Positions 4,399 to 42,390 of a stretch of 46,136 bases of DNA are shown piece after piece. This stretch comes from Acidimicrobiales bacterium (GTDB taxonomy: Bacteria; Actinomycetota; Acidimicrobiia; Acidimicrobiales; AC-9). Position 1 is the first letter of the stretch, and each line of letters starts with the position of its first letter. The notes under the pieces are model-generated. The model did not search any database. It was not told the origin of the DNA and saw only the letters and a list, made by a program, of their open reading frames with translations. The position numbers were made by a program, and so were the translations under genes. The DNA lies in NCBI GenBank assembly GCA_036491125.1, contig DASXCO010000051.1, forward strand, positions 1-46,136, in the 5' to 3' direction.

Positions 4399-5280
4399 GT
4401 GAGCGAGATCTGCCGGGGACGGGTCGCCGTCGTCACAGGCGCGGGTCGTGGCGTCGGTCGGGGGCACGCCCTCGAGCTCGCCCGCCAGGGCGCCAGCGTC
4501 GTCGTGAACGACCTGGGCGGCTCGATCGACGGGACCGGTGCCGACGCCGGGCCGGCGAAGGCCGTCGTGGACGAGATCCGGGGACGGGGCGGGGAGGCGG
4601 TGGCCAACACCGACGACGTCGCCGAATGGGAGGGTGCACGACGCCTCGTCGAGACGGCCACCGGCGCCTTCGGCAAGCTCGACATCCTCGTCAACAACGC
4701 CGGCATCCTACGGGACCGGATGCTCTTCAACATGACCGAGGAGGAGTGGGACGCGGTCGTTCGTGTCCACTTGAAGGGCACGTTCGCCCCGACACGCTGG
4801 GCCGCGTCCTACTGGCGGGACGAGCACAAGGCCGGGCGTCTCCCCGACGCCCGGGTGATCAACACGTCATCGACCTCCGGGCTGTTCGCCAACCCCGGCC
4901 AGAGCAACTACGGGGCGGCGAAGTCCGGGATCGCCACCTTCTCGATCATCGCCTCCAAGGAGTTGGGCCGCTACGGCGTCACCGTCAACGCCATCGCCCC
5001 CGGAGCCCGCACCCGCATGACCGAGGACCTGGGCGGCAGAGCAGCGCCTCCGGCGGGGGAATGGGACGATCGAGCTCCTGAGAACGTGGCCCCGCTCGTC
5101 GCCTGGCTGGCGAGTCCTTCCTCGCGCCACGTCACCGGCCAGGTGTTCCTCGTCGGGGGTGGCCGCGTCGGTGTCGCGAGGGGGTGGGAACGGGGTCCGG
5201 GAGCCGATCACGGCGCCCGGTGGGAGCCGGCCGACCTGGACGACGTCGTCCCCGGCCTGCTGGCTGAGACAGAGACCTGA
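4399..5280 (+). CDS. SDR, multifunctional-enzyme-2-type 3-hydroxyacyl-CoA dehydrogenase
   Basis: This 293-residue short-chain dehydrogenase has the NAD(P)-binding VTGAGRGVGRGHA near the N-terminus, VVVNDLGGSIDG after strand 2, the NNAG motif (LVNNAGILRDR), and a catalytic set with Ser in INTSSTSG and Tyr/Lys in NYGAAKSG. The VVNDLGG and RDRMLFNMTEEEWD signatures are characteristic of the dehydrogenase domain of peroxisomal-type multifunctional enzyme 2 (HSD17B4/FOX2-like), which oxidises 3-hydroxyacyl-CoA. The start is GTG 4399, preceded by GAAGGAAGGGG. The C-terminal 40 residues extend beyond the usual SDR core and look variable. Third gene of the 2802-6078 operon. Confidence 0.87.
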   Translation: MSEICRGRVAVVTGAGRGVGRGHALELARQGASVVVNDLGGSIDGTGADAGPAKAVVDEIRGRGGEAVANTDDVAEWEGARRLVETATGAFGKLDILVNNAGILRDRMLFNMTEEEWDAVVRVHLKGTFAPTRWAASYWRDEHKAGRLPDARVINTSSTSGLFANPGQSNYGAAKSGIATFSIIASKELGRYGVTVNAIAPGARTRMTEDLGGRAAPPAGEWDDRAPENVAPLVAWLASPSSRHVTGQVFLVGGGRVGVARGWERGPGADHGARWEPADLDDVVPGLLAETET

Positions 5281-5283
5281 GCG

Positions 5284-6078
5284 ATGGGCGCGCTGGATGG
5301 AAGGGTCGCGTTGGTCACAGGGGCCAGCCGGGGGATCGGTGAGGCCATCGCCCGGCGGTTCGCGGGCGAGGGCGCGGCCGTTGGCGTCTCGGCCCGGACC
5401 GTGGTCGAAGGGGACCATCCGCTGCCGGGCAGCCTGGAAAGCACGGTTCGATCGATCATCGAGTCTGGTGGGGCCGCCTTCGCGGTGGCCGCCGATCTCG
5501 CCAACGAGGAGGACCGGCGATCGCTCGTCGCCACGGTCGAGCACAAGCTGGGACCGGTCGACGTGCTCGTCAACAACGCCGCCGTCACCTACTTCGAGCC
5601 GGTGCAGGACTTCGACGGACGGCACTACCGGCTGATGTTCGAGGTGCAGGTCCGGGCTCCGTTCGAGCTCGCCCAGCTGGTGATGCCCGGGATGCGCGCC
5701 CGTCGCCGCGGTTGGATCCTCAACATCTCGTCGGGCGCCGCTCGCCATCCCCAGGGCCCGCCCTACCGGCGAGGAGTGCGCGGTGGTGCCGTGTACGGGA
5801 TGTGCAAGGCGGCGTTGGAGCGGTTCACGACGGGTCTGGCCGCCGAGGCCTACGATGACGGGGTCGCCGTCAACGTCCTGTCACCCTCGGGACTGGTGGC
5901 GACGCCCGGAGTTGTCCACCACGGCCTCGACCGGGCCATGCCGCCGGACGCCTTGGAGCCCGTCGAGGCGATGACCGAGGCGGCGCTCGTGCTGTGCACG
6001 GGTGATCCGGCGACGATGACGGGGCGAGTCGTGTACGCCAAGCCCCTGCTGGCGGAGCTCGGCGGGCGGCCCAGCTAG
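5284..6078 (+). CDS. SDR family oxidoreductase
   Basis: This 264-residue SDR has cofactor motif TGASRGIG at residues 13-20, NNAA in the VLVNNAAVTYF segment, Ser in LNISSGAAR and the Tyr-x-x-x-Lys pair in YGMCKAALE. The substrate is unknown. It starts 3 bases after the stop of the preceding SDR and so belongs to the thiolase/DUF35 operon, which suggests oxidation or reduction of the same acyl-CoA or cyclic intermediate. It ends 4 bases before a convergent gene on the other strand. Confidence 0.85.
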   Translation: MGALDGRVALVTGASRGIGEAIARRFAGEGAAVGVSARTVVEGDHPLPGSLESTVRSIIESGGAAFAVAADLANEEDRRSLVATVEHKLGPVDVLVNNAAVTYFEPVQDFDGRHYRLMFEVQVRAPFELAQLVMPGMRARRRGWILNISSGAARHPQGPPYRRGVRGGAVYGMCKAALERFTTGLAAEAYDDGVAVNVLSPSGLVATPGVVHHGLDRAMPPDALEPVEAMTEAALVLCTGDPATMTGRVVYAKPLLAELGGRPS

Positions 6079-6082
6079 CGCG

Positions 6083-7585
6083 CTAGACCACCGGCACCGG
6101 GCGGCCCGCCTTGAAGGCCGCGATCACCTGGCCGAACGCCTCCAGAGAACCGGGAGTGGCCACGTCGGGAAGGGAGACGATCGCCGTCTGGACGCCGGCT
6201 TCCGCGAGGTCCCGATAACGCCCGACGTGCTCCTCGACGGTGCCGGCGCCGAGCCGGTGCCCGACCTCCTCCGGCGTCGCCGAACGGGGCCGGTGCCGGT
6301 CCAGCGCGGCCCGCAGCTCACGGCGGGTGGGCGCCACGAGGGCCGTGGACAGATGGGTGACGCCCACCTCCGTCGGATCCCGGCCCAGCCGGTGGCAGTG
6401 GTCGGCGAGCACGGAGATCTTGTGGCGGACCGTGGCGGGATCGCCCGTCAGGTTGCAGGCGTCGGCATACGTGGCCGCCAGCCGCAAGGTCGTCCGTTCG
6501 CCGGACCCGCCGACGAGGATGGGCACATGCTGCTGGAGGGGCCTCGGGTAACACAGCGCCTCGGTCATGCTGACGACCTTGCCGTCGAACGGCGGTGAGC
6601 CCGGACCCCACATGAGGGGCAGGAGCTGCAGCGCGTCCTCGAGCAGCGCGTAGCGCTCGGCCAGCGGCGGAAACCTCCAGCCGTACAGACGGTGCTCGTG
6701 TTCCCACCAGGCAGCGCCGAGCCCGCAGATGGTGCGCCCGCCGCTCAGGACGTCGAGCGTGGCGACGATCTTGGCCAGGTGGGCGGGATTGCGCAGCGTC
6801 ACCCCCGTGACCAGCGTGCCCAGCCGGGCTGTCCGGGTGCACGCCGCCAACCATGCCAGCGTGGTCCAGGCTTCGGGCAGGTCGTCCCAGCGCCGCCCCA
6901 CCTGGGGGATCTGCACCATGTGGTCCATCAGCCAGATGCTCGAGAAGCCGACCGACTCGGCGGTTGCGGCGACATCGGCCAGCCAGGGGGCAAATGGTGC
7001 CTCAGGTGGCCTGCCGGCGAAGGATGACAACTGGAGCCCGAAGCTGAGGGGGAGGGGGGCGTTCCGCTGGCGGGCAGCCGACGCGGGGGCGTCGACGAGG
7101 TCGGCGGGGACGACCTCGACCGGCTCCGCCGGATGCACCCCGCCGAAGCCCTCGTCGCCCACCAGTGCCGCAGCCTCGTCGCGGGCCGCGAGCTGTGCCG
7201 TCAGGACCTTCGCCGGCACCGGGTCCCTCCGCGTCCGGTTGCGGGCCCGGCACGTCTCGGCCGGGGTATCGAACACCACTGCACGGCACGCCACATCGTG
7301 TCGGCGTGCGAGCTCCACGTAGCCGCGGCGGCGGGCGGGGTCCAGGCCGAGGGTGTCGACCACCGTCAGCAAGCCCCGCGCCAGACGGCGTTCGAGGACG
7401 AGATCGAGCACGTCGAAGGCGTCGGTGCCCGACCGCTGGTCCTGGTCGCCGACCCCCACCAGAGCGCGCAGCGCGTCGGACGAGACGACCTGCCCGGAGC
7501 GGAACTGCTCGGCCGCCCAGCGGGACTTGCCCGCGCCGGACGGCCCGACGAGCACGACCAGGCAGGAGGCGGGAAGACGCATCAC
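6083..7585 (-). CDS. Fusion: P-loop kinase-like domain + luciferase-like (LLM) oxidoreductase
   Basis: This 500-residue protein joins two domains. Residues 1 to about 165 are a P-loop NTPase of the AAA_33/polynucleotide-kinase-like type, with Walker A GPSGAGKS at 14-21, SSDALR, TVVDTLGLD and an Arg-rich lid (RARNRTRRDPVP). After a short linker, residues from about 178 onward are a luciferase-like monooxygenase barrel, with LPLSFGLQL, SIWLMDHM, ARLGTLVTGVTLRNPAHLAK, and the LLM motifs GLGAAWWEHEH and VPILVGGSG. The LLM part resembles the Rv1855c-like group expected to use F420. The start is GTG 7585 with ATG 7582 immediately after; neither has a strong ribosome binding site. The function of the fusion is unknown. 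Confidence 0.85.
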   Translation of the reverse strand: MMRLPASCLVVLVGPSGAGKSRWAAEQFRSGQVVSSDALRALVGVGDQDQRSGTDAFDVLDLVLERRLARGLLTVVDTLGLDPARRRGYVELARRHDVACRAVVFDTPAETCRARNRTRRDPVPAKVLTAQLAARDEAAALVGDEGFGGVHPAEPVEVVPADLVDAPASAARQRNAPLPLSFGLQLSSFAGRPPEAPFAPWLADVAATAESVGFSSIWLMDHMVQIPQVGRRWDDLPEAWTTLAWLAACTRTARLGTLVTGVTLRNPAHLAKIVATLDVLSGGRTICGLGAAWWEHEHRLYGWRFPPLAERYALLEDALQLLPLMWGPGSPPFDGKVVSMTEALCYPRPLQQHVPILVGGSGERTTLRLAATYADACNLTGDPATVRHKISVLADHCHRLGRDPTEVGVTHLSTALVAPTRRELRAALDRHRPRSATPEEVGHRLGAGTVEEHVGRYRDLAEAGVQTAIVSLPDVATPGSLEAFGQVIAAFKAGRPVPVV

Positions 7586-7668
7586 CTCAGTCTGGTCCAG
7601 CCGGGCCTGGCGAGGCCGGCAACGGGCCGGTGTAGCCTGACCACCGCTTCGATCGATTGCACCGCTCG

Positions 7669-7728
7669 AGTAGCCCGGCCCAGGATGCCGGCTCGAGGAG
7701 TAGCCCGGCCCAGGAGGCCGGCTCGAGG
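7669..7728. repeat. Two tandem copies of a 30-bp repeat upstream of the DoxX gene
   Basis: Copy 1 is 7669-7698 and copy 2 is 7699-7728; they differ at one base (GGATGCC against GGAGGCC). Each contains a short inverted repeat; in copy 2 CCGGCC and GGCCGG flank CAGGA. Because 30 is a multiple of three, an upstream frame would read it as a repeated SSPAQ-AGSR peptide, but it most likely lies in the leader of the downstream gene. Confidence 0.8.
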
Positions 7729-7743
7729 AGAGGGAGAGATCAC

Positions 7744-8262
7744 GTGCGTAAGGGGAGGGCCACAGGCCACGACAGCGACATCCCGGCGCTGCTGCTCCGC
7801 CTCGCTCTGGGTCCCATGCTGATCACGCACGGCTACAACAAAGTGAAGGGCGCGGGCGGCCTGGAGGGGACGGCGAAGTGGTTCGACGGGCTCGGGCTCA
7901 GGCCGGCGTGGGTGCACGCCCGCCTCGCTGCGGCCACCGAGATCGGCGCAGGAACACTCATCACCATCGGCGCACTCAATCCGCTCCCGGCGGCTGCCGT
8001 CATCGGGCTGATGACGACGGCGGCGGCGACTGACCACCGAGGGAAGGGCTTCTTCATCTTCAAGGGCGGATGGGAGTACGTCGCCGTCGTGGGCACGGCG
8101 GCGGCCGCCCTGGCGTCGCTCGGCTATGGGCGCTTCTCGCTGGACCACCTGCGGGGTAAGCAGCGGTCGGGCGTGGGGTGGGCGCTGGCGGCGACGGCCC
8201 TCGGCGCCGGCAACGCCGGCGCCTTGGTGGCCGCTTCCTACCGACCCGACCAGAACACCTGA
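7744..8262 (+). CDS. DoxX family membrane protein
   Basis: This 172-residue integral membrane protein has about four hydrophobic segments. The N-terminal pattern is IPALLLRLALGPMLITHGYNK, followed by hydrophobic stretches around LITIGALNPLPAAAVIGLM, VAVVGTAAAALASLGYG and the C-terminal ALAATALGAGNAGALVAAS. The 'LLLRLxLGxxLxxHGxxK' start and the GKGFFIFKGGWEY loop are typical of DoxX/SURF4-type proteins, whose biochemical roles are mostly undefined, although some sit in redox complexes. The start is GTG 7744, preceded by GAGGAGAGGGAG. A frame reaching back through the tandem repeat to 7657 exists but has a worse start. Confidence 0.82.
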   Translation: MRKGRATGHDSDIPALLLRLALGPMLITHGYNKVKGAGGLEGTAKWFDGLGLRPAWVHARLAAATEIGAGTLITIGALNPLPAAAVIGLMTTAAATDHRGKGFFIFKGGWEYVAVVGTAAAALASLGYGRFSLDHLRGKQRSGVGWALAATALGAGNAGALVAASYRPDQNT

Positions 8263-8313
8263 CCCTCTGGGCGGTCGCTGTTCATTGAGCAAGCGTCCCG
8301 GTCGCGCGTCAAT

Positions 8314-9408
8314 TCACGGCGACGGCGGCGGGTTCGCCCAGACGTAGCGGGCCAGCGCCGGCTCGGCGCCGGTGTGCGGATAGGTCGCGACGACGGTCAC
8401 AGCCCCGAGCGCGTAGCTGGCATAGTCGGCTGGAAAGGTGAGCGGATCGACTCCCGGCTGGAACGGTGTGGTGCACACCGAGGTCGGGATGCGGGAGGCC
8501 TCGGCGGGGCCAGGATGGGTGAACGCATCGAGGGCGACGGCGTAGGCGACCGGGTCGTAGGACCCCATGGCCAGGTGCTCAGAGACGTCGGCCGGACAGA
8601 TCTGTTGGGCGGCGATGTTGACGACGGCGCCCCCTCCAGTGTGCAGCGACGAGCTACCCGACGCATCGAGATTCGGGAAGACCACCTCGTCGACGCGGCT
8701 GTAGACGACGCTGTAGGAGATGCCGGCGAAGGTCTCCGCCGCGCTGTTCAGGGCAGCGAGGAAGTGGGAGCCGGTCCGCTGCTGCCAGATGGAGGGGGCA
8801 CACGACAGCGCGCAGATCCCGTTGGCGTCGAGGGTGCCGTGGTTGGAGGGGTCGATGGCCACCAGGTCGTCGACCAGGGTCCGGGTGTCGGGCCAGAAGC
8901 GTAAGGCCCACCGGGGCACCATTCCGCCCTGGCTGAAGCCGAGGACGTCGACCTTGCGCCCCGACATCTGGTGCATCGTCCGGAGGGCGTAGACGATGTA
9001 CTCACCAGCCGTCTGGATGTCGGACATCCCGTGGCCGGGAAGCGTCACCGCGCAGTAGGGCAGCTGGAGGGCGCTGAACGCCCGTTCGTAGTTCCACGAG
9101 AAGTTCGGGGCCGGGGTGAGGGCGGTGCCCGCCACGAGGAGCACGGGTTCCCGGGTGGCGGCGGCGACGTTGCCCGTGCAGGCGAGGCTGGCGGCCAGGT
9201 CGGTGACGGGAACGTCCAGCGGCGGTCCGGGGCGATCCGGGGGAGCGTAGGAGCCGGCCGACGACGGGGCCGAGCCGGTCGCGCTCGCCACTCCGCCCGG
9301 CGCCGTGACGACCAGGGCGACTGTGAGGAGCAGGGCCAGCACCATACCGACCACGACGGCCAGTATCGCCCAGATCTGCCGCGATGGCTCACCCGACCAG
9401 CTCAGCAC
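8314..9408 (-). CDS. Secreted CalB-like lipase (alpha/beta hydrolase)
   Basis: The protein is 364 residues from GTG 9408. An N-terminal hydrophobic segment (IWAILAVVVGMVLALLLTVA, residues about 11-31) serves as signal or anchor. The hydrolase domain matches the pattern of Candida antarctica lipase B: VLLVAGTAL oxyanion region, VDVLGFSQGGMV with nucleophile S159, the stretch APSIWQQRTGS, the acid in VVYSRVDEVVFP, and a His in VSEHLAMG. From established knowledge of CalB homologues the expected reaction is ester or triglyceride hydrolysis outside the cytoplasm. A longer frame runs to 10329 but would overlap the entire GDSL gene and is spurious. It is convergent with the DoxX gene and divergent from an SGNH lipoprotein gene. 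Confidence 0.85.
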   Translation of the reverse strand: MLSWSGEPSRQIWAILAVVVGMVLALLLTVALVVTAPGGVASATGSAPSSAGSYAPPDRPGPPLDVPVTDLAASLACTGNVAAATREPVLLVAGTALTPAPNFSWNYERAFSALQLPYCAVTLPGHGMSDIQTAGEYIVYALRTMHQMSGRKVDVLGFSQGGMVPRWALRFWPDTRTLVDDLVAIDPSNHGTLDANGICALSCAPSIWQQRTGSHFLAALNSAAETFAGISYSVVYSRVDEVVFPNLDASGSSSLHTGGGAVVNIAAQQICPADVSEHLAMGSYDPVAYAVALDAFTHPGPAEASRIPTSVCTTPFQPGVDPLTFPADYASYALGAVTVVATYPHTGAEPALARYVWANPPPSP

Positions 9409-22708: not shown

Positions 22709-22869
22709 TGTCGTACGGGCGAGTGCTGTGATCAAGGGGGGCATCTTCATATGCTCACGCTGCGAAGCTCCAGGCCACCGAAATGGTCCACGCCTCGGGC
22801 TGTCGCCGGCTCGACGCGCCGGAGCGGCCGTGCCCTGGTGGCGACGTACCGGGAACGGAGGAACCACTC

Positions 22870-24180
22870 GTGAAGTTGCGCACGGGATCCAAGGCCGGCG
22901 CGGTCGCCCTTCTTACGGCAGCGCTGGCCGCGGCAGGGTGTAGCAGCGGCTCGTCGGGCGGTTCGTCGAGCCCGGGGACGTCGTCGTCGTCTGGGTCGGC
23001 CGCGTCGTCGTCTGGGTCGGCAGCGTCGTCGCGGGGTTTCGACGGCCACACGATCAAGGTCGCCGGGATCAGCGAGCTGTCGAACTTCGCCGGAGCCGAG
23101 ATCGGCTCAGAAGCGCGCTTCAAGAGAGCCAACGACACCAACGAGCTGAACGGCATCAAGATCCAGTTTCAGGAGATGGCGAACTCGAACTTCGATCCGG
23201 CCACGGCCTTGTCGGAGGTTCGCCGCCTCGTGACACAGGACCAGGTCTTTGCCATCGTGCCCGACCTCTCGGCCGAGAACCCGGGGCCGTACCTGGCTCA
23301 GCAGCAGGTCCCCTACCTCGGGTACGGGTTCGACACCAGCTATTGCAGCCCCACGCCGTCGACGTCGGTATGGGGCTTTGGCTACAACGGCTGCCTGGTG
23401 CCGACGAACCCGCCGAAGATGCCCGACTCCTTCAGCAACCTCTACAAGTACGTGAGCGGCAAGACCGGCAAGCAGCACCCGACCATGGCGCTCTTCTCCA
23501 GCGACATCCAGTCGGGCAAGGACGCCACCAAGTTCCAGGCCTCGGCGGCCCAGGGTGCCGGCTTCAACGTTGTCTACGCCAAGGGGGTCTTTCCGACTGT
23601 CACCTCTGACTACACGCCCTACGTCCAGCAGTGGCTGAGGGCCGCCGGCGGTAAGGCGCCTGACACGTTGACCTGCCTGGCGGCCACGCAATGCATCCAG
23701 ATCTGGCAGGCGGTGCAGGCGGCGGGCTACCAGGGCACCTTCTACCACACGCTGGGTAACGTCGATGCGCTGGCGAAGGTGTTCGCAGGCACTTACACGG
23801 CCGCCTTCTACAACACGGACACGGCGTCGAACCCCGGACTGGCCCAGATGCAAGCCGACTTCCAGGCGTTCAAGCCGGGCACCGCGCTCACCGGGTATTC
23901 CAACGTGCCGGCCTACTTCGCCGCCGATATGTTCATTCAGGCCGTGAAGAAGGTGGGGCGGAACATCACCCCCCAAGCCGTGCAGAAGGCACTTTCGACC
24001 ATCACCTGGCAGATTCCGGGGTTTGTCGGTCCGACCGTGTACCCGTCCTCGACCGCGGTGCCGACGCCAGCATGCACCGAGCTGCTAGCCGACCCGCCCG
24101 GGGGATCCGGGTACCAGATCGTCGAGCCCTTCAGCTGCTCGAACCGCCAGATCTCGATCGACCCGAACTTCACAGGATGA
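22870..24180 (+). CDS. ABC importer substrate-binding lipoprotein (branched-chain amino acid type)
   Basis: The protein is 436 residues from GTG 22870, with GGAGG 8 bases upstream. The signal peptide KLRTGSKAGAVALLTAALAA ends in an AAGC lipobox with Cys24. A Ser/Gly/Ala linker encoded by a 21-bp tandem repeat follows. From residue about 60 the type 1 periplasmic-binding fold begins (HTIKVAGISELSNFAGAEIG, FQEMANSNFDPATALSEVRR, VFAIVPDLSAENPGPYLAQQ). In this family (Peripla_BP_6) ligands include amino acids but also aromatic and cyclic acids. The importer genes follow downstream, so this is its binding protein. Confidence 0.9.
   Translation: MKLRTGSKAGAVALLTAALAAAGCSSGSSGGSSSPGTSSSSGSAASSSGSAASSRGFDGHTIKVAGISELSNFAGAEIGSEARFKRANDTNELNGIKIQFQEMANSNFDPATALSEVRRLVTQDQVFAIVPDLSAENPGPYLAQQQVPYLGYGFDTSYCSPTPSTSVWGFGYNGCLVPTNPPKMPDSFSNLYKYVSGKTGKQHPTMALFSSDIQSGKDATKFQASAAQGAGFNVVYAKGVFPTVTSDYTPYVQQWLRAAGGKAPDTLTCLAATQCIQIWQAVQAAGYQGTFYHTLGNVDALAKVFAGTYTAAFYNTDTASNPGLAQMQADFQAFKPGTALTGYSNVPAYFAADMFIQAVKKVGRNITPQAVQKALSTITWQIPGFVGPTVYPSSTAVPTPACTELLADPPGGSGYQIVEPFSCSNRQISIDPNFTG
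22984..23025 (+). repeat. Two 21-bp tandem repeats in the lipoprotein linker
   Basis: Copies at 22984-23004 and 23005-23025 differ at one base. They encode repeated SSSGSAA-type linker units right after the lipidated Cys, probably a flexible spacer to the membrane. Confidence 0.8.
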
Positions 24181-24324: not shown

Positions 24325-25161
24325 ATGAGCACCCGCCCTGTCTCGCTTGCCTCCACGAACTCGGCACCGTCGGAGGCGGCCGTGCTGGTGCTGGAGGACA
24401 TCGCCGTCCGCTTTGGTGGGGTCACGGCGCTGGGGGGAGTGTCGCTGACCGTGGGCCGAGGTGAGGTCTGCGGATTGATCGGCCCCAACGGAGCGGGGAA
24501 GACGACCCTGTTCGACGTGGTGTCGGGAGTCCGTCGTCCCGAGCGGGGCCGCGTCGTGATGGACGGCGTCGACATCAGCTCACTCGGGCCACCGCAGCGG
24601 TGCTGGAAGGGGATGCGCCGTACCTTCCAGCGGGTCCAGACCTTCGGCTGGTTGACCGTGGAGGAGAATGTGCTGGCCGCGACCGAGTGGCGCGGCGGCG
24701 GGGGTGGGCTCCTGGCCGATCTCGTCGCCCTGCCTACCCGCCGTCGCCGGGAGCGAGCTCGCCGCGCCTTGGCCGACGGTGCGCTCGAGCGCTGCGGCCT
24801 CACGAAGGTGCGCTCGGAGTACGCCGGGTCGCTGCCCATCGGCATCGCCCGGATGGTCGAGTTCGCCCGGGCGACCGTGGAGCCGCCCCGGTTGCTGTTG
24901 CTGGACGAACCGGCGGCCGGTCTGGACGAGGAAGAGGCAGGTCGACTCGGCGAGCAGATCGAAGCAGTACGAGCGGAAACCGGGTGCGCCGCGCTCCTGG
25001 TGGAGCACAACTCGGGTTTCGTAATGGCGCGCAGCGACCGGGTCGTGGTGCTGGCGTTGGGATCGGTCCTGGCCATCGGGTCGCCCGAGGCGATCCAGGC
25101 CGACCCGATGGTGCGGAGTGCCTACCTCGGAGATGGTTCGCCCAATGGGGGAGGGAGGTAG
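24325..25161 (+). CDS. livG: LivG-like ABC transporter ATP-binding protein
   Basis: This 278-residue ATPase has Walker A GPNGAGKTT (K59), a Q-loop in RRTFQRVQTFGWLTVEENV, Walker B LLLLDEPAAGLDEEE and the switch His in LLVEHNSGF. The C-terminal GSVLAIGSPEAIQADPMV, typical of LivG, is present. The signature position, normally LSxGQ or LPYGQQR, reads SLPIGIARMVE (from residue 169), an unusual variant lacking the Gln. A 144-base gap separates it from the binding-protein gene, with no feature seen in it. The fused permease gene begins 7 bases after its stop. Confidence 0.87.
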   Translation: MSTRPVSLASTNSAPSEAAVLVLEDIAVRFGGVTALGGVSLTVGRGEVCGLIGPNGAGKTTLFDVVSGVRRPERGRVVMDGVDISSLGPPQRCWKGMRRTFQRVQTFGWLTVEENVLAATEWRGGGGGLLADLVALPTRRRRERARRALADGALERCGLTKVRSEYAGSLPIGIARMVEFARATVEPPRLLLLDEPAAGLDEEEAGRLGEQIEAVRAETGCAALLVEHNSGFVMARSDRVVVLALGSVLAIGSPEAIQADPMVRSAYLGDGSPNGGGR

Positions 25162-25168
25162 CGGCAGC

Positions 25169-28054
25169 GTGACCAAGCTGTTGAACCTGGTCCTTTCTGG
25201 CGCGGTGACCGGGTCGATCTACTCCATCATGGCCTCCGGGCTCGTTCTGACCTACACGACGTCGGGGATCTTCAACTTCGCTCACGCCGCGGTCGCCTTC
25301 GCCGTCGCCTACCTCTACTACCAGCTGCACTCCGGTCTGGGCGTACCCATCGTTCCGGCCCTGCTGATATCGGTGCTGATCTTCGCTCCGTTGCTGGGAT
25401 TGCTGCTGGACTGGTTGATCCTTCGCCGTCTCGCCAAGGCACCGGTGTACGCCCGTATCGTCGGGACCATCGGCCTGCTCGTCGCCCTCCCGGCCCTGAT
25501 GCAGTGGCTGGTGGTCACCCTCGGCAACAACGTGCTCGGCCTGGGTCTGCTCGGCAACGCGGCGTCCTCACAGGGGGGCGGCCAGGTGCCGGGGGTGGGC
25601 CCCAACCCCGCGCACGTGTACCACCCCCTGCACGGGGTGGCGCTGACCTCCGACCAGCTGGCCGTGTTCGTGGTCGCCGCCCTCGCCGCCGCCGGCCTCT
25701 GGTTCCTACTGCGCCGCACACGGGTCGGCCTGGAGATGCGCGCGGTCGTCGACCGCGACAGCCTCGCCGGGCTTCGGGGCGTCAACTCCGGGCGCACCTC
25801 AGCCACCGCCTGGATCCTCACCATGATCCTCGCCGGCCTCGGCGGTGTGCTCATAGCCCCCCTCTTTCAGCTCGACGACACCACCTTCACCCTCGTCGTG
25901 CTCGGCTCACTGGCCGCCGTGGTGCTCGGCGGGCTGCGCTCCCTGCCCATCGCGTTCGCCGGGGGCCTGTTGCTCGGCGTGGTGCAGAACCTCATCGCCG
26001 GCTACAACAACGTCCTGCCCAGCTTCATCGGCAACCTGACCGGCCTCCGATCGGCCGTGCCGTACCTACTCGTCCTGGTGCTGGGCTTGATCATCGGTCG
26101 GGACCGCTCCCGTCAGGCGGGCTCGGTCGCCGAGGAGCGGTCGCCGCCCGACCATCGCCGGGGGATGTCCGCGCTCCGCCGGAGGCTGCCGTGGGCGGTC
26201 TTTGTCGTGCTCCTGGTCGGGTTCTCGATGCAGTGGCTGAACGTGTCCTGGCTGCGGGCCGACACCTACGACCAGACCGTGATCGCCCAGGGGCTCGCCA
26301 CCGCCATCATCTTCCTGTCGTTCGTCATCGTGACGGGAATGGGGGGCATGGTCAGCCTTGCCCAAGCGACCTTTGTCACCGCAGGCGGGTTCGCTGCCGG
26401 GTGGGCCCTCAGCCGGAACTGGGGCATCGACATCCCGCTCATCGCCTCGCATGGACACCTCAACTTCGCCTGGGCAGTGCTCATCGCCACTGTCGCGGCG
26501 GCGGCATTGGGGGCGCTGATCGCCTTGCCAGCCGTCCGGCTGGGCGCCGTCTACCTGGCTGTCTGGTCACTGGCGGCCGCATTCTTCTTCTCCTTGGTGC
26601 CCTTCGCCTACGACGCCATCGGCAAGGGGCAGCTGGGCTGGACCATCCCGTCCCCGGGATTGAACGTGCCAGGTCTCAACTGGGTGCACACCCTTGCGGC
26701 CCCTCAGGGCGGGGCGTTCAACTTCAGCCGCCTGGCCGACCAGATTCTTCTCTTCTTGGCCGTGTTCGGCGTGATCACGGCCGTGATCCACGCGCTGCTG
26801 CGCTCGGCGTCGGGACGAGCGATGCTCGCCGTGCGCAGCTCTCCCATCGCAGCTCAGGCATTCGGCATCCGAGCCAACCGCACCAGGATCCTCATCTTCG
26901 CCCTGTCGGCCGGCATCGCCGGGCTCGGTGGGGTCATGCTCAGCTTGTTCTCGTCCGCCGCCAGCAACAGCACCGCGCCGCCACTCATCGGCCTCGTCTG
27001 GCTGGCGGTGGTCGTAGTGTTCGGCATTCGCCGGCCGGGCGGTGCGCTCCTTGCCGGCTTGTTCGTCGCCGGGGCCACCGCGTTGTTCCACTGGATGTCG
27101 TCGGTCCTACCCGGCGGCTCGATCAACACGCTCGTCACCTCGGTCTACTTCGTCCCGATCCTGTCGGGCCTCGGTGCCATCCAGCTCGCCCGGGAGCCCG
27201 ACGGCATTCTGTCGCTGGCGGGCCGGACGCGGCTGAGGTGGCCCGGAACGAGGCGGCGGGAGCGGATCGCCGCGGTCGAGGCTGGTATGCACGGCGGCAC
27301 GGTCCCTGAGCATGAGCGGACCCACACCGGCGCGGCCGCCACGGGACCCGGCGATCCCGACGCCGCCCTGTCGCTCTCAGGAATCGTCGCTGGTTATGGC
27401 GACGCGGAGGTCCTCCACGGGGTGACGATGAACCTCTACGCCGGAAAGGTCATCGCGCTGCTCGGCGCCAACGGCGCTGGAAAGTCGACTCTCTGTGGTG
27501 TCGCCGCCGGCCTGGTCGCGCCCACCGACGGAAGCATCACGCTGAAGGGGACCGACCTCACTGCTCGCCCCGCCTACCAACGCGCCCGTGCCGGCCTCGT
27601 GTTGGTCCCCGAGGCGCGCGGGGTGTTCCCTGGCCTCACGGTCGAGGAGAATCTCTCTGTGTCTCTCCGTGTCCCTCAGGACCGGGAACGGGCCTACTCG
27701 CGCTTTCCCCTCTTGGCCCAGCGCCGCAATCAGCACGCGGGCCTGCTGTCCGGCGGCGAGCAGCAGATGCTGAGTCTCGCTCCGGCGCTGGCCGATCCTC
27801 CAGCGGTGCTGATCGCCGATGAGCCCACGCTCGGACTGGCACCGCTCGCGGCCGAGGAGGTCTTGCGGGCGATCCTCGAGCTGCGTGACGACGACACGGC
27901 CGTGCTCCTGGTCGAAGAGCACGCCCAGAACGCCCTTCAGGTCGCTGACTCGGTCGTCTGCATGGACCTGGGCCTCGTGACCTGGACTGGCGCCACGGCG
28001 GAGGCGGACATCGACCAGCTCAGCGCCACCTATCTGGGAAGCGCCAAGGCGTGA
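25169..28054 (+). CDS. LivH-LivM-LivF triple fusion (two permeases and an ATPase)
   Basis: This 961-residue polypeptide starts at GTG 25169. Residues 1 to about 320 are a LivH-like permease (ASGLVLTYTTSGIFNFAHAA, ARIVGTIGLLVALPAL, MRAVVDRDSLAGLRGVN). A basic linker leads to a LivM-like permease from about 333 to 690 (GMGGMVSLAQATFVTAGGFA, ALPAVRLGAVYLAVWSLAAA, MLAVRSSPIAAQAFGI). A charged linker then leads to a LivF-like ATPase from about 715 to the end: Walker A GANGAGKST (K772), signature LSGGEQQ (near 861), Walker B VLIADEPTLGLAP and switch LLVEEHAQNA. Separate LivH, LivM and LivF are the norm. No frameshift is visible across the junctions. With the LivG-like ATPase and the lipoprotein this gives a complete importer. 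Confidence 0.92.
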   Translation: MTKLLNLVLSGAVTGSIYSIMASGLVLTYTTSGIFNFAHAAVAFAVAYLYYQLHSGLGVPIVPALLISVLIFAPLLGLLLDWLILRRLAKAPVYARIVGTIGLLVALPALMQWLVVTLGNNVLGLGLLGNAASSQGGGQVPGVGPNPAHVYHPLHGVALTSDQLAVFVVAALAAAGLWFLLRRTRVGLEMRAVVDRDSLAGLRGVNSGRTSATAWILTMILAGLGGVLIAPLFQLDDTTFTLVVLGSLAAVVLGGLRSLPIAFAGGLLLGVVQNLIAGYNNVLPSFIGNLTGLRSAVPYLLVLVLGLIIGRDRSRQAGSVAEERSPPDHRRGMSALRRRLPWAVFVVLLVGFSMQWLNVSWLRADTYDQTVIAQGLATAIIFLSFVIVTGMGGMVSLAQATFVTAGGFAAGWALSRNWGIDIPLIASHGHLNFAWAVLIATVAAAALGALIALPAVRLGAVYLAVWSLAAAFFFSLVPFAYDAIGKGQLGWTIPSPGLNVPGLNWVHTLAAPQGGAFNFSRLADQILLFLAVFGVITAVIHALLRSASGRAMLAVRSSPIAAQAFGIRANRTRILIFALSAGIAGLGGVMLSLFSSAASNSTAPPLIGLVWLAVVVVFGIRRPGGALLAGLFVAGATALFHWMSSVLPGGSINTLVTSVYFVPILSGLGAIQLAREPDGILSLAGRTRLRWPGTRRRERIAAVEAGMHGGTVPEHERTHTGAAATGPGDPDAALSLSGIVAGYGDAEVLHGVTMNLYAGKVIALLGANGAGKSTLCGVAAGLVAPTDGSITLKGTDLTARPAYQRARAGLVLVPEARGVFPGLTVEENLSVSLRVPQDRERAYSRFPLLAQRRNQHAGLLSGGEQQMLSLAPALADPPAVLIADEPTLGLAPLAAEEVLRAILELRDDDTAVLLVEEHAQNALQVADSVVCMDLGLVTWTGATAEADIDQLSATYLGSAKA

Positions 28055-32698: not shown

Positions 32699-33919
32699 AT
32701 GAATCGCTATCTGGTGATCTCGTCCGACGGTCACGCGGGACCCCCCGCTGCTCAGTACCGCACGTACCTCGATCCCCGGTACCGAGCCGCATTCGATGAC
32801 CACCTGGAGGCGATGAAGGGGCTCCTCGAGGCGGCAAACGTCGAACGGCAGAGCTCCGAGTTCATCGCCAAGTGGGAGAAGCTCACGGGCGGCGATGGCG
32901 GTCTGCTGGCTGCGTACGACTCCGAGTACCGCAACAAGGTGCTTGACGGTGAGGGCGTCACCGCCGAGGTGCTCTTCCCGGACGCCGACGTCCTGGGCAC
33001 CGGGCGGGTGGCGGCGTCACCCTTCGGCTCAGGCCTCGCCGGTGGGACCGGCACCGATCCCGAGCTCGTCATGGCCGGGGCCACGGCCCACAACCGCTGG
33101 CTGGCCGATTTCTGCTCCGAGGCGCCCGACCGGCGGATAGGGGTGGCCGTGGTGCCCATCCTCCACGACATCGACGCGGCCGTCGCCGAGATCGGCGCCG
33201 CCCGCGAGCGTGGCCTGCGAGGGGTCATGATCCCGACCAGGTGGTTCGATCAGCCCGCCTACCACCACCCCCGGTATGACCCGGTGTGGAGCTCCTGCGA
33301 AGAGCATGGCATGGTCCTGCACACGCATTCGGGCGCCGGACCGGCGGACTACGGCGAGGGACCGGGAATGATCGCCATCTACGCGACCGAGGCGCACTGG
33401 TGGGCAGCGAGACCGTTGTGGGTGCTGATCTGGTCGGGCGTGTTCGAGCGGCACCCCGGGCTCAAGTACGTGGTGGCCGAGAACGGCGCCTGGTGGGCGC
33501 CAGACATTCTCGACAAGATGGACGAGAAGTACCTCGGCGGGCACAACACCGCCAAGATGGGCAACGCCTTCCGAGCCGAGCTGACGATGAGGCCGACCGG
33601 GTACTTCGATCGCAACTGCTTCCTGGCGGCGTCGACGCCCGGCCAGGAGGACATCGACCGTCGACACGGGGTGGGCGTCGGGAACCTGCTCTGGGGTAGC
33701 GACCTGCCCCATCCAGAGGGCACCTTTCCGTACACCCACTACTGGATCCGCAGGCGCTTCCGCGACGTTCCCGAGGACGAGACCCGCCGCATGCTCGGCG
33801 CGAATGCCGCCGAGCTGTATGGGCTCGACGTAGCCAAGGTGACGGCGCAGGCCGAGCAGATCGGTCCGACGGTCGAAGAGGTGCACGGGGACCAGCCGGT
33901 GGAGCCGGCTCCAGCATGA
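32699..33919 (+). CDS. Amidohydrolase_2 family metal-dependent hydrolase/decarboxylase
   Basis: This 406-residue protein has an N-terminal metal motif SSDGHAG (D10, H12), mid-barrel VLHTHSGAGPADYG, VVAENGAWWAPDILDKMD, and C-terminal LLWGSDLPHPEGT with the conserved Asp. The metal ligands are intact, unlike the member at 18662. Related proteins open or decarboxylate cyclic acids. Its stop overlaps ATGA with an in-frame start of the Rieske gene, so the two are cotranscribed, suggesting that hydroxylation and hydrolysis act on one substrate. Confidence 0.87.
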   Translation: MNRYLVISSDGHAGPPAAQYRTYLDPRYRAAFDDHLEAMKGLLEAANVERQSSEFIAKWEKLTGGDGGLLAAYDSEYRNKVLDGEGVTAEVLFPDADVLGTGRVAASPFGSGLAGGTGTDPELVMAGATAHNRWLADFCSEAPDRRIGVAVVPILHDIDAAVAEIGAARERGLRGVMIPTRWFDQPAYHHPRYDPVWSSCEEHGMVLHTHSGAGPADYGEGPGMIAIYATEAHWWAARPLWVLIWSGVFERHPGLKYVVAENGAWWAPDILDKMDEKYLGGHNTAKMGNAFRAELTMRPTGYFDRNCFLAASTPGQEDIDRRHGVGVGNLLWGSDLPHPEGTFPYTHYWIRRRFRDVPEDETRRMLGANAAELYGLDVAKVTAQAEQIGPTVEEVHGDQPVEPAPA

Positions 33920-33960
33920 GTGACCCGAGGATCTACGCGCCTCGGGTCGAGGAGGAAGCG

Positions 33961-34995
33961 ATGTCTGTCTCGCAGAGCGACCGCGGCTCGGTGAGCCGGG
34001 AGTTCGCCGGGTTGCCCATGCCCGCCGACCAGGATCTGGTGTTCGACCGGGCTCGGCGACCTCGCGTGACCAGAGGGTCAGGGCGGCGGTTCCCCTTTCC
34101 GATCCCGAACGGCTGGTTCATCGTGGCCCGCGGCGACGAGCTCGACGTGGGCGACGTGATGCCGTTGTTCTATTTCGGGCGGGACCTCGTGCTGTATCGG
34201 ACGGCCGGGGGCGAGCCGAGGCTCCTCGACGCCCACTGTCCACACCTCGGGGCCAACCTGGCCGTCGGCGGACGGGTCGAGGGGGAGGTGATCCGCTGTC
34301 CGTTCCACGGCTGGTGCCTCGATGGCGAGACGGGTGCCTGCGTGGAGATCCCCTACAGCGAGAGCGACCACCTCCCCAACCGGGCGACGACGCGCACCTA
34401 CCCGACCCTGGAGCGCAACCACATGATCTGGGCCTGGCACCACCGGGAGGAGAAGCCGCCCTTCTACGACGTCCCCGTCGTAGCCGAGTTCCACGACGCG
34501 GACTGGGCGCCGATCATTTCTCGGGAGTACCAGGTCGCCAGCTGCTGTCAGGAGATGGCGGAGAACAACGTCGACTACGCCCACTTCAAGTACGTGCACG
34601 GTACCGATGCCATCCCTGAGGAGGAGTTCGTCGTCGACGGAACGTACAAGCGCTCGGTGGGCATGAACGGCAACTTCGTCCGCGAGGGCTTCGGCCTCGG
34701 GCTCGGCGTGCTCCGCGTGAGCGGGTACTGCACCTTCTTGTCGAGCACGACGCCGATCGACGAGGAGAACCTGCATGTCAGGTGGATCTTCACGGCGCCC
34801 AAGTCAGCGGGTGAGCACGTGAGTCAGCAGGCCGCCGAGAGCTTCTGCACCGGCGTCAGCCAGGACATCCCGATCTGGGAGAACAAGATCTACCGGGAGC
34901 GGCCGGTCCTGACGAAGTCCGAGCGGTCGATTCTCGAGCACCGCAAGTGGTCCGAGCAGTTCTACTCGTACCTTCCGGATGACAGCGTCAACTAG
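33961..34995 (+). CDS. Rieske non-heme iron oxygenase, KshA-like
   Basis: The protein is 344 residues from ATG 33961, with GGAGGAAGCG directly upstream; ATG 33916 would add 15 residues and overlap the previous stop. The Rieske [2Fe-2S] ligands are C93-x-H95 (CPHLGANLAVGG) and C113-x2-H116 (CPFHGW). The mononuclear iron site is NNVDYAHFKYVHG (D205 bridge, H208, H213) plus D302 in QDIPIWENKIY. CPHLGANLAVGG, with the C-terminal QDIPIWENK, closely recalls the oxygenase of 3-ketosteroid 9-alpha-hydroxylase and cholesterol-type Rieske enzymes. The substrate is therefore probably a polycyclic or steroid-like ketone, but this is inference. No dedicated reductase gene is present in the window. Confidence 0.88.
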   Translation: MSVSQSDRGSVSREFAGLPMPADQDLVFDRARRPRVTRGSGRRFPFPIPNGWFIVARGDELDVGDVMPLFYFGRDLVLYRTAGGEPRLLDAHCPHLGANLAVGGRVEGEVIRCPFHGWCLDGETGACVEIPYSESDHLPNRATTRTYPTLERNHMIWAWHHREEKPPFYDVPVVAEFHDADWAPIISREYQVASCCQEMAENNVDYAHFKYVHGTDAIPEEEFVVDGTYKRSVGMNGNFVREGFGLGLGVLRVSGYCTFLSSTTPIDEENLHVRWIFTAPKSAGEHVSQQAAESFCTGVSQDIPIWENKIYRERPVLTKSERSILEHRKWSEQFYSYLPDDSVN

Positions 34996-35837: not shown

Positions 35838-37238
35838 TCACGATCGGCTCTCCTCGGACGCTACCCCTGCGCTCGACCGAGGCTCCATCAGGGGCGAGCT
35901 CCGGTTGGAGGGCCAGGTCGGTCGGAAGTAGCCGCGGAAGTGCAGGGCGCCGCGCCGCAGCTCCCGGATGGTCAGGAAGTCGCCTTTGTAGCCCCGGTGG
36001 TCGTACGGGGCGAAGGTGAGGCTGGTCCCGGGACCGCCGTTGGTGCACGGGAGCCACTTGAGGCGCTCGAGGCCGTCCTTCACCTCTCGGGGGGTGGCGA
36101 TGAGGGCATTGGCGATGCCGTGGACGGCCGCCCGGGCCGAGTCGTAGGCCAGGGCGACGACGACGTTCCTCGATGTCCGGCCGAAACGGGCGTCGAAGCG
36201 CTCGAGCATGGCCTCGTAGTTGGGGTTCGCCCCGTCCTCACCGAGCTGGTCGACGCCATGCCAGCCCTCGAGGCCCTCGGCCCATGCGTTGGAGTTCGAG
36301 TAGAACATGAACGCCGTCCCCATCATCCTCGGCGGGTCCCAGTCGATCGCCTTGAACGCCCGGGCGAAGTGGAACGTGCTGTAGCCGTAGCCGAGATAGA
36401 CGATGGCCTCGGCGCCCAGACGGCGCATGGTGGCGAGGTGGCGCTCGAGGTCGCGTGGGTTCGGCCCCAGCGTCACCTCCTTCACGATCTCCAGTCCCTC
36501 GTCGCGCGCTGCCGAGCGAAAGAAGTCGGCGTAATCGGACCCCGACGAGCCCCGCTCCCAGAAGAAGCCGACCTCGGTGTGACCCTGCTGGGCGCACCAT
36601 CCGGCGCACATCCGGCCCTCGATGGGGATGTCGCCATTGGCGACGGTGAAGCAGTACTCACCCGAGAAGCGGACGGCTCCCGTCCAGCCGAGGCAGGCGA
36701 CGCCGGTGGCGTTGATGGTGTCCCGCAGGGCCACAGAGTTGTCGGAGATCATGGGTCCGATCACGACGACACAGCCCTCCTCGACGAGGCGGCGGTAGCC
36801 GGCGATCACCTTCCGGTAGTTCTCGCGGGGCAGGCCGCGGGCGTCGACCGTGAAGATCTCGACCGGCCGGTCGTACACGCCCTCGTTGAGGGCGTCTTCG
36901 ATGGCGAGGATGGTCGGATCGATCCAGTCGGCCAGGAGCTGGCCCAGGTCCATGTCGATCAGAATGCCGATCTTCACCGGCTCGAAGGGGTCTCCCTGGG
37001 TCTGGAGGCCCCGGGTCGGGGGGTAGACGACGATGGACTCGACGGCCTTCTCACCCGACCTCCCGCCGCCTTGGTACCACGTCTCGTTCTCCCAGCCCCC
37101 GAGGGTCGCCGTGTCGACGCCGGACACCACGGTCGACACCGCCCGGTCCTCCTTGGCGATGCCGTGGTCGACGGGGGCGGGGAACATCCGCTCGGCGTAC
37201 CGCGCCTCGCCCTCGTGGCCGCTGCCGTCGTCTGCCAT
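35838..37238 (-). CDS. Type 1 periplasmic-binding-fold protein lacking a signal peptide
   Basis: The protein is 466 residues from ATG 37238, with GGGGAGCGGAG upstream. From about residue 85 the Peripla_BP_6/Leu-Ile-Val-binding fold is clear: EPVKIGILIDMDLGQLLADW, VEIFTVDARGLPRENYRK, EEGCVVVIGPMISDNSVALR, GYGYSTFHFARAF, and VVVALAYDSARAAVHGIANA. The first 80 residues are charged and hydrophilic (MADDGSGHEGEARYAERMF), with no signal peptide, lipobox or membrane segment. It should therefore be cytoplasmic, unlike normal binding proteins. It could be a ligand sensor like AmiC, or an enzyme partner. No permease genes adjoin it. An SDR follows 14 bases downstream of its stop, and an acyl-CoA ligase is divergent. 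Confidence 0.78.
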   Translation of the reverse strand: MADDGSGHEGEARYAERMFPAPVDHGIAKEDRAVSTVVSGVDTATLGGWENETWYQGGGRSGEKAVESIVVYPPTRGLQTQGDPFEPVKIGILIDMDLGQLLADWIDPTILAIEDALNEGVYDRPVEIFTVDARGLPRENYRKVIAGYRRLVEEGCVVVIGPMISDNSVALRDTINATGVACLGWTGAVRFSGEYCFTVANGDIPIEGRMCAGWCAQQGHTEVGFFWERGSSGSDYADFFRSAARDEGLEIVKEVTLGPNPRDLERHLATMRRLGAEAIVYLGYGYSTFHFARAFKAIDWDPPRMMGTAFMFYSNSNAWAEGLEGWHGVDQLGEDGANPNYEAMLERFDARFGRTSRNVVVALAYDSARAAVHGIANALIATPREVKDGLERLKWLPCTNGGPGTSLTFAPYDHRGYKGDFLTIRELRRGALHFRGYFRPTWPSNRSSPLMEPRSSAGVASEESRS

Positions 37239-37250
37239 CTCCGCTCCCCT

Positions 37251-37260
37251 CTGTATACAG
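37251..37260. promoter_or_regulatory. CTGTATACAG palindrome in a divergent promoter region
   Basis: The 10-base perfect palindrome CTGTATACAG lies 12 bases upstream of the ATG at 37238 and 82 bases before the ligase ATG at 37343. A GTATAC core is common in FadR-subfamily GntR operators, and a GntR gene of that subfamily lies at 42392. The link is inference. Confidence 0.45.
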
Positions 37261-37342
37261 TATGTAGCCTTCACCGCGGACCACGAGGTGCGCAAGCAGC
37301 GGCGCCTCCGGTGATCACGGGTATGCGTCAGTAAGGGTTCCT

Positions 37343-41634: not shown

Positions 41635-42390
41635 ATGTCCACGAACGAGAAGGTCTACATCCACGAGCTGGTCGACATCCTCGGCCACAATCGGGCTCGG
41701 TACATGTACCACATGACGGCCAATTGGAGCCCCATCGCCCAGGAGGAACGGCATCAGCTCTGCTACGGCGTGTGGGGTGTGGTGGGGAGCACGTCGTACT
41801 GGCCGAGGGTCCTCAACATATGGGAGGAGGACGGCTTCGACGGGCTGGCGGCATCGTTCGGTCACGAGTTCGAGCACCCGGGCCTCCAGGACCCCAAGCT
41901 GGCCAAGTGGTGGGCCGAGGCGGCCAAGTATCGCCGCGGCGGGGTGGACAGGATCCTCGTCCCCGCGCCGTGGAGTCGCACCATCGCGGAGCTGTGCGCC
42001 GACGGTGTACGGGGGCAGGTCTACGCCCACGAGCAGGTCGAGCTGCCGCAGGGCGGTTCCCGCGACTTCCTCGAGCACGTCCGGGACGCGGCCGTGCCGT
42101 TGTACGAGGAGCACGGCTGGGTGCTGGTCGGCGCGTGGGAGACGGCCATGACGAACGAGTCCGAGTGCATCCTGTTGTGGGCGATCCCGTCGTGGGATCG
42201 ATGGGCGGCCCTCGAGCGTGCCGAGCGGGTCGAGTGCGCCGACACCCCGATCAGACGGTGGCGGCGCGCCAGCTACGACCGGACCATCTCGTCCCAGCGC
42301 TTCCTCGTCGTCGACTCACCCCTGTCGCCGTTGCGCACCGGCCGCCAACCCAACAAGTCGGACAGGAGCGACGACTGGCAGGACCTCTGA
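41635..42390 (+). CDS. NIPSNAP-like (dimeric alpha/beta barrel) protein, two repeats
   Basis: The protein is 251 residues from ATG 41635, with GAGGAGAG upstream. Two related halves can be seen. In the first, VYIHELVDILGHNRARYMYH leads to YGVWGVVGSTSYWPRVLNIW. In the second, VYAHEQVELPQGGSRDFLEH leads to LVGAWETAMTNESECILLWA. Each has the beta-alpha-beta-beta pattern of NIPSNAP/ABM ferredoxin-like domains, whose members are small-molecule-binding or monooxygenase-like. I cannot assign a reaction. It is divergent from the amidohydrolase and convergent with the GntR gene, with one base between. Confidence 0.65.
   Translation: MSTNEKVYIHELVDILGHNRARYMYHMTANWSPIAQEERHQLCYGVWGVVGSTSYWPRVLNIWEEDGFDGLAASFGHEFEHPGLQDPKLAKWWAEAAKYRRGGVDRILVPAPWSRTIAELCADGVRGQVYAHEQVELPQGGSRDFLEHVRDAAVPLYEEHGWVLVGAWETAMTNESECILLWAIPSWDRWAALERAERVECADTPIRRWRRASYDRTISSQRFLVVDSPLSPLRTGRQPNKSDRSDDWQDL

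Follow-up and report, generated by a model that had tools for sequence, protein, structure and literature searches.

Closest described systems

The canonical Liv importer consists of one LivH, one LivM, one LivG and one LivF (1:1:1:1). The LivHMGF/BraDEFG importers of branched-chain amino acids (HAAT, TC 3.A.1.4) share with the locus described here both permease domains, both types of ATPase and a Peripla_BP_6 binding protein; here, however, three of the four core parts are in one chain and the scores are below the NCBIfam equivalog cut-offs. The UrtBCDE urea importer is also similar, UrtE being the best NCBIfam match of the fused ATPase and UrtB a permease model among the best 25, although both fall below their cut-offs (UrtE, 179.7 of 285.8 bits; UrtB, 96.4 of 250.3 bits). 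The locus is therefore not assigned to the urea importer UrtABCDE; nor are the scanned neighbours urease or nitrogen genes. A Thermotoga maritima ABC ATPase, PDB 1ji0, presumably of the LivF type, is a lone ATPase, whereas here the ATPase domain is fused to permeases. Actinobacterial H-M, H-M-G and H-M-F-G proteins likewise join Liv parts. The last two fuse LivG or both ATPases, however, whereas the H-M-F fusion leaves LivG free, and the clade to which the present protein belongs has Glu at the LivF switch. An H-M-F fusion was absent from the titles and abstract openings searched in the open-licence literature, and the available passages of PMC6703430, PMC3924187 and PMC2821768 describe none of this kind.

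In an ABC dimer both ATP sites are composite: one subunit contributes the Walker A/B motifs and its partner the signature. The available passages of PMC6703430 likewise place each ATP between Walker A and a signature belonging to opposite cassettes, and report that the switch histidine of LptB, H195, is essential and touches the gamma-phosphate.

The fused gene and its neighbours

The window is the whole stretch of DNA analysed, 46,136 nucleotides from an Acidimicrobiales bacterium. As the preliminary description had stated, LivH, LivM and LivF are in one frame of 961 residues at 25169-28054 (+), which contains no internal stop and measures 1009 codons from stop to stop; the domains are recognised by Pfam and NCBIfam. 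The gene starts at GTG 25169, 7 nt after the stop of LivG, and a purine-rich, ribosome-binding-like stretch, GGGAGGGAGG, is present ahead of it at 25149-25158 (+). The order, in a single direction, is binding protein, LivG, H-M-F. The substrate-binding protein (22783-24180, +) is of the Peripla_BP_6 type (PF13458, 1.8e-35) and has an N-terminal lipoprotein-like AAGCSS, seen by eye; 18 of the 21 loci compared have such a Peripla_BP_6-type protein close to the fused gene.

The chain contains BPD_transp_2 (PF02653) twice and ABC_tran once. Its LivH-like permease domain covers residues 1-311 (25169-26101, +), with the best PF02653 stretch at 8-303, and its LivM-like permease domain residues 335-687 (26171-27229, +), with the second PF02653 stretch; both are supported by the helices of the structure model. 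These are separated by the H-M linker of residues 312-334 (26102-26170, +). The M-F linker, residues 688-727 (27230-27349, +), has an Arg-rich start and leads to the LivF-like ATPase domain at residues 731-961 (27359-28051, +), in which PF00005 is at 749-887. This domain has the signature LSGGEQ and a Glu at the H-switch position, residue 917. The class labels H, M, F and G follow profiles built here from first-pass matches rather than curated models.

The fused ATPase is of the LivF type, scoring 179.7 bits against UrtE and 148.9 against LivF compared to 86.9 against LivG (NCBIfam). The separate ATPase upstream (24325-25161, +; PF00005) scores 203.8 against LivG and 99.8 against LivF and has the PF12399 domain. 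Neither reaches an NCBIfam equivalog cut-off (LivF, 441; UrtE, 285.8; LivG, 362). Judged from these scores, the two are relatives of Escherichia coli LivF and LivG, and same-function orthology is not supported; with no curated cut-off reached, the cargo cannot be read from the families. The features of a Liv (HAAT) importer are nevertheless all present: two BPD_transp_2 domains in the chain, a fused LivF-type and a separate LivG-type ATPase, and a Peripla_BP_6-type binding protein. The H-M-F protein is therefore very probably, going by sequence, the membrane part and one motor of a binding-protein-dependent importer of this family, paired with the separate LivG.

Genes around H-M-F encode SDRs, a luciferase-like monooxygenase, a P450, two Amidohydro_2 proteins, an acyl-CoA ligase and a class III CoA-transferase. 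Because of these degradation and CoA-activation genes, the cargo may be guessed to be a ring-bearing or branched carboxylic compound that they act upon. They hint that a carboxylic compound, not necessarily an amino acid, is taken up and then activated with CoA. A Rieske oxygenase with KshA_C, of the 3-ketosteroid 9alpha-hydroxylase type, is found at 33916-34995 (+), near the P450 and CoA-activation genes. A 251-residue protein at 41635-42390 (+) has no Pfam or NCBIfam match; near H-M-F in genomes of the genus g35 it recurs together with an acyl-CoA ligase and an amidohydrolase. Another Peripla_BP_6 binding-type protein is present at 35838-37295 (-), with no permease gene noted alongside.

Linkers and translation of the joins

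The structure model of the chain (mean pLDDT 76.2, pTM 0.79, 13 rows) is confident over most of the three domains. Its pLDDT is below 50 at 312-334 and 688-727, which matches the linkers proposed beforehand near residues 320-333 and 690-715; shorter stretches of low pLDDT are also found within H and M. The nearest solved structure to the ATPase domain is 1ji0 (39% identity, TMt 0.87). Fold-search matches of the chain model are dominated by ATPase domains, and the permease part, compared by sequence with solved structures, gave no match at E up to 1. Coupling loops are cytoplasmic in the Liv importer family. Counting helices of the model from these loops, H would end in the cytoplasm and M would both start and end there, so the joins would need no additional membrane crossing.

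Across the clade the H-M linker is 20-23 residues long with a recognisable sequence. The M-F linker is variable in sequence and, by the domain bounds used, ranges from 14 to about 130 residues. The longest figures come from genus g35 and take in roughly 75 residues from the last part of M. Across 13 g35 genomes, dN/dS values are 0.085 for H, 0.142 for the H-M linker, 0.095 for M, 0.325 for the M-F linker and 0.059 for F, and the linker indels are in-frame. This indicates that the joins are translated.

The frame could be continuous and still yield separate H, M and F proteins through internal starts or processing. The M-F linker of the window does contain an ATG at 27287 preceded by GAGG, from which some free LivF could be made in this one genome. 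Among the 34 H-M-F genes examined, however, the junctions share no conserved internal start accompanied by a ribosome site, and in one genus the M-F linker evolves under coding constraint, making separate products very unlikely.

The probable LivG partner

Within a sample of 397 genomes of the order, the H-M-F profile (threshold >700 bits, next match 520) identified 29 genomes in 12 genera among the matches listed. A LivG profile was built from eight LivG proteins of loci beside H-M-F, its clade scoring at least 347 bits and the next match 323. This LivG clade is present in 28 of the 397 genomes, these being 27 of the 29 listed with H-M-F and one of the 368 others, G200. The association (Fisher p 2e-38) is drawn from counts inflated by relatedness, with 14 of the 29 genomes belonging to one genus; by genus, LivG accompanies H-M-F in 12 out of 12, and with the eight seed genomes removed it does so in 19 of 21.

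In genus g35, LivG is apart from H-M-F: in each of the 13 loci examined (L213-L225, one of which is that of G200), no further Liv part was found closer than roughly 4 kb. There H-M-F is found with its binding protein elsewhere than the lone LivG, and the LivG is still kept. The matching LivG was not detected by the profile in two H-M-F genomes, G347, where H-M-F is broken, and G363. These cases, and G200 without H-M-F, are perhaps draft gaps. In G347 (L105) H-M-F is interrupted by an in-frame TAG and the matching LivG is also not found.

A homodimer of the fused protein, (HMF)2, acting without LivG would be in keeping with the distance between the two genes in g35 and with the two genomes lacking a detected LivG. 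The co-occurrence of the LivG clade with H-M-F, even where unlinked, speaks against it and supports a separate LivG. Moreover, such a dimer would contain four permease halves and lack a His switch, since every one of the 34 clade members examined (30 of 30, plus L229, L230, L233 and L234) has Glu at this position of LivF. It is thus a very unlikely arrangement, and the separate LivG is, on this pattern of occurrence, the likely partner of the fused chain.

The proposal that the second ATPase is provided in trans by the LivG-type protein is upheld by this distribution, whereas the accompanying statement that LivG supplies the second ATPase site does not hold, both sites being composite. Similarly, the suggestion that fusion fixes the stoichiometry adds little, because unfused Liv importers already have one H, M, G and F.

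Distribution and origins of the fusion

The H-M-F frame is unbroken in 26 of the 29 genomes among the matches listed, corresponding to 27 loci as G142 has two. The others are G347, with its TAG, and G384 and G076, which are cut by contig ends. A whole frame that is open in 27 loci from 26 genomes of one clade is more than chance. The same architecture is present in related genomes, and no clade member was found with a separate F, so that the refuting case of separate proteins in all close relatives does not arise. An assembly or sequencing error, hiding a stop or frameshift that would separate livH, livM and livF in the source genome, a 251-contig draft that is 96.4% complete, is already refuted for the clade and can be dismissed, given the same open fusion in those 26 genomes, including the single-contig G004, G175 and G243, its presence in named isolates and the codon-type evolution of the linkers.

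Outside the order, H-M-F is present in Sphaerisporangium fuscum, Embleya sp. NBC_00888 (58.5% identity), Nonomuraea gerenzanensis and two further genomes. The Embleya and Nonomuraea genes are on plasmid records that have no annotation at the match. A search of 396 genomes of the phylum at E up to 1e-130 found the window, G004, full-length matches in G547 and G724, a partial match in G566 and an H-M match in G095. The fusion is thus spread over several actinobacterial orders; it is real, old and common to many distantly related actinobacteria. H-M-F should be seen as an established variant of a common transporter, being neither an error nor a new machine.

In a tree of the H-M part, from which ten near-identical g35 rows were left out beforehand, all 26 rows of this H-M-F clade are on one branch (SH-aLRT 100). 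The nearest relatives of the window protein are those of G338, which belongs to another family, and Embleya. The profile search did not find H-M-F in G001 and G002, of the same genus as the source genome, among the matches listed. Because of this absence and the placement of its nearest relatives, H-M-F is judged to be patchy and to have probably moved between lineages.

A second H-M-F group (L033, L034, L120 and L121) is located in the tree among systems of split H-M plus F, and one of these split systems, L060, belongs to the source genome itself. Placing both H-M-F groups in one clade is rejected (p-AU 1.4e-5), a value that is indicative, as it comes from 24 rows chosen after the tree had been seen and a simpler model. 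This rejection indicates that H-M-F arose at least twice.

Fusion of Liv parts in the source genome and elsewhere

There are 29 BPD_transp_2 matches in the source genome, which represent 14 Liv systems and one contig-end fragment. H and M are in one frame in 12 of these 14 systems, and other fused frames are H-M-G (L056 and L062), M-G (L051), G-F (L057), F-G (L052) and H-M-F-G (L058). The last of these, at 4620-9053 of its locus, joins both permeases and both ATPases in 1478 codons from stop to stop. In a set of 80 loci from named genomes, retrieved on the basis of similarity, H-M-G occurs in Rhodococcus, Frankia, Streptomyces and others, proteobacteria have M-G fusions, and H-M-F is limited to L133 and L134. 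The fusion is not exceptional in the source genome, where H-M fusion is the rule. Liv fusion is ordinary in this group and H-M-F is a rarer form of it.

ATP sites and proposed mechanism

The LivF signature is [LM]SGG[EQ] in 44 of 44 proteins of the order sample and in 82 of 82 from named genomes. LSGGQ is found in none of 48 LivG in the order sample and in 3 of 80 from named genomes. The switch His is present in every readable LivG of the order sample (47) and in all 80 from named genomes. Of the 42 readable LivF switches in the order sample, 39 are Gln, 3 are Glu and none is His, and the 82 from named genomes have 75 Gln, 3 Glu (the window, L133 and L134), 3 Lys and 1 His; both sets include the window. 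The second H-M-F lineage has Gln at this position in 4 out of 4. No statement of this LivF/LivG switch asymmetry in Liv proteins was found in the titles and abstract openings of the open-licence literature.

Because LivG has the switch His and LivF the standard signature, the motifs suggest one complete ATP site, made of the LivG Walker A/B and His switch with the LivF signature, and one degenerate site, although the three LivG proteins with LSGGQ count against the latter.

The LivH and LivM domains would then form a two-half membrane channel, with the LivF domain attached flexibly to LivM at its cytoplasmic end and paired with the LivG-type ATPase encoded by the immediately preceding gene. 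The complex would consist of one fused chain and one LivG, retaining the 1:1:1:1 composition of unfused Liv importers, and the binding protein encoded at 22783-24180 would hand over the substrate. Hydrolysis would be expected at the composite site of LivG Walker A/B and His switch with the LivF LSGGE signature. The other site, where the LivF Walker A/B with its Glu switch would face the degenerate LPIGI signature of LivG, may mainly bind ATP. A further, rather doubtful possibility is that LivF in this clade has become a permanently catalysis-poor half, serving as a tethered binding and signature platform, with LivG as the detachable motor and the importer running on one hydrolysis site. If so, the motor subunit LivG would be swappable, or could be regulated independently of the channel.

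Implications for the Liv family

The fusion has been settled to be genuine and old, and Liv parts have been joined in several ways in this order of bacteria (H-M, H-M-G, H-M-F and H-M-F-G). Less expected are the second origin, the retention of LivG where it is unlinked and the occurrence of Glu at the LivF switch throughout the clade. The motif pattern, with a His switch in LivG and the standard signature in LivF, poses a question for the Liv family as a whole, namely whether the two ATP sites differ in their job. H-M-F, which leaves exactly one ATPase free, would be a natural tool with which to test this.
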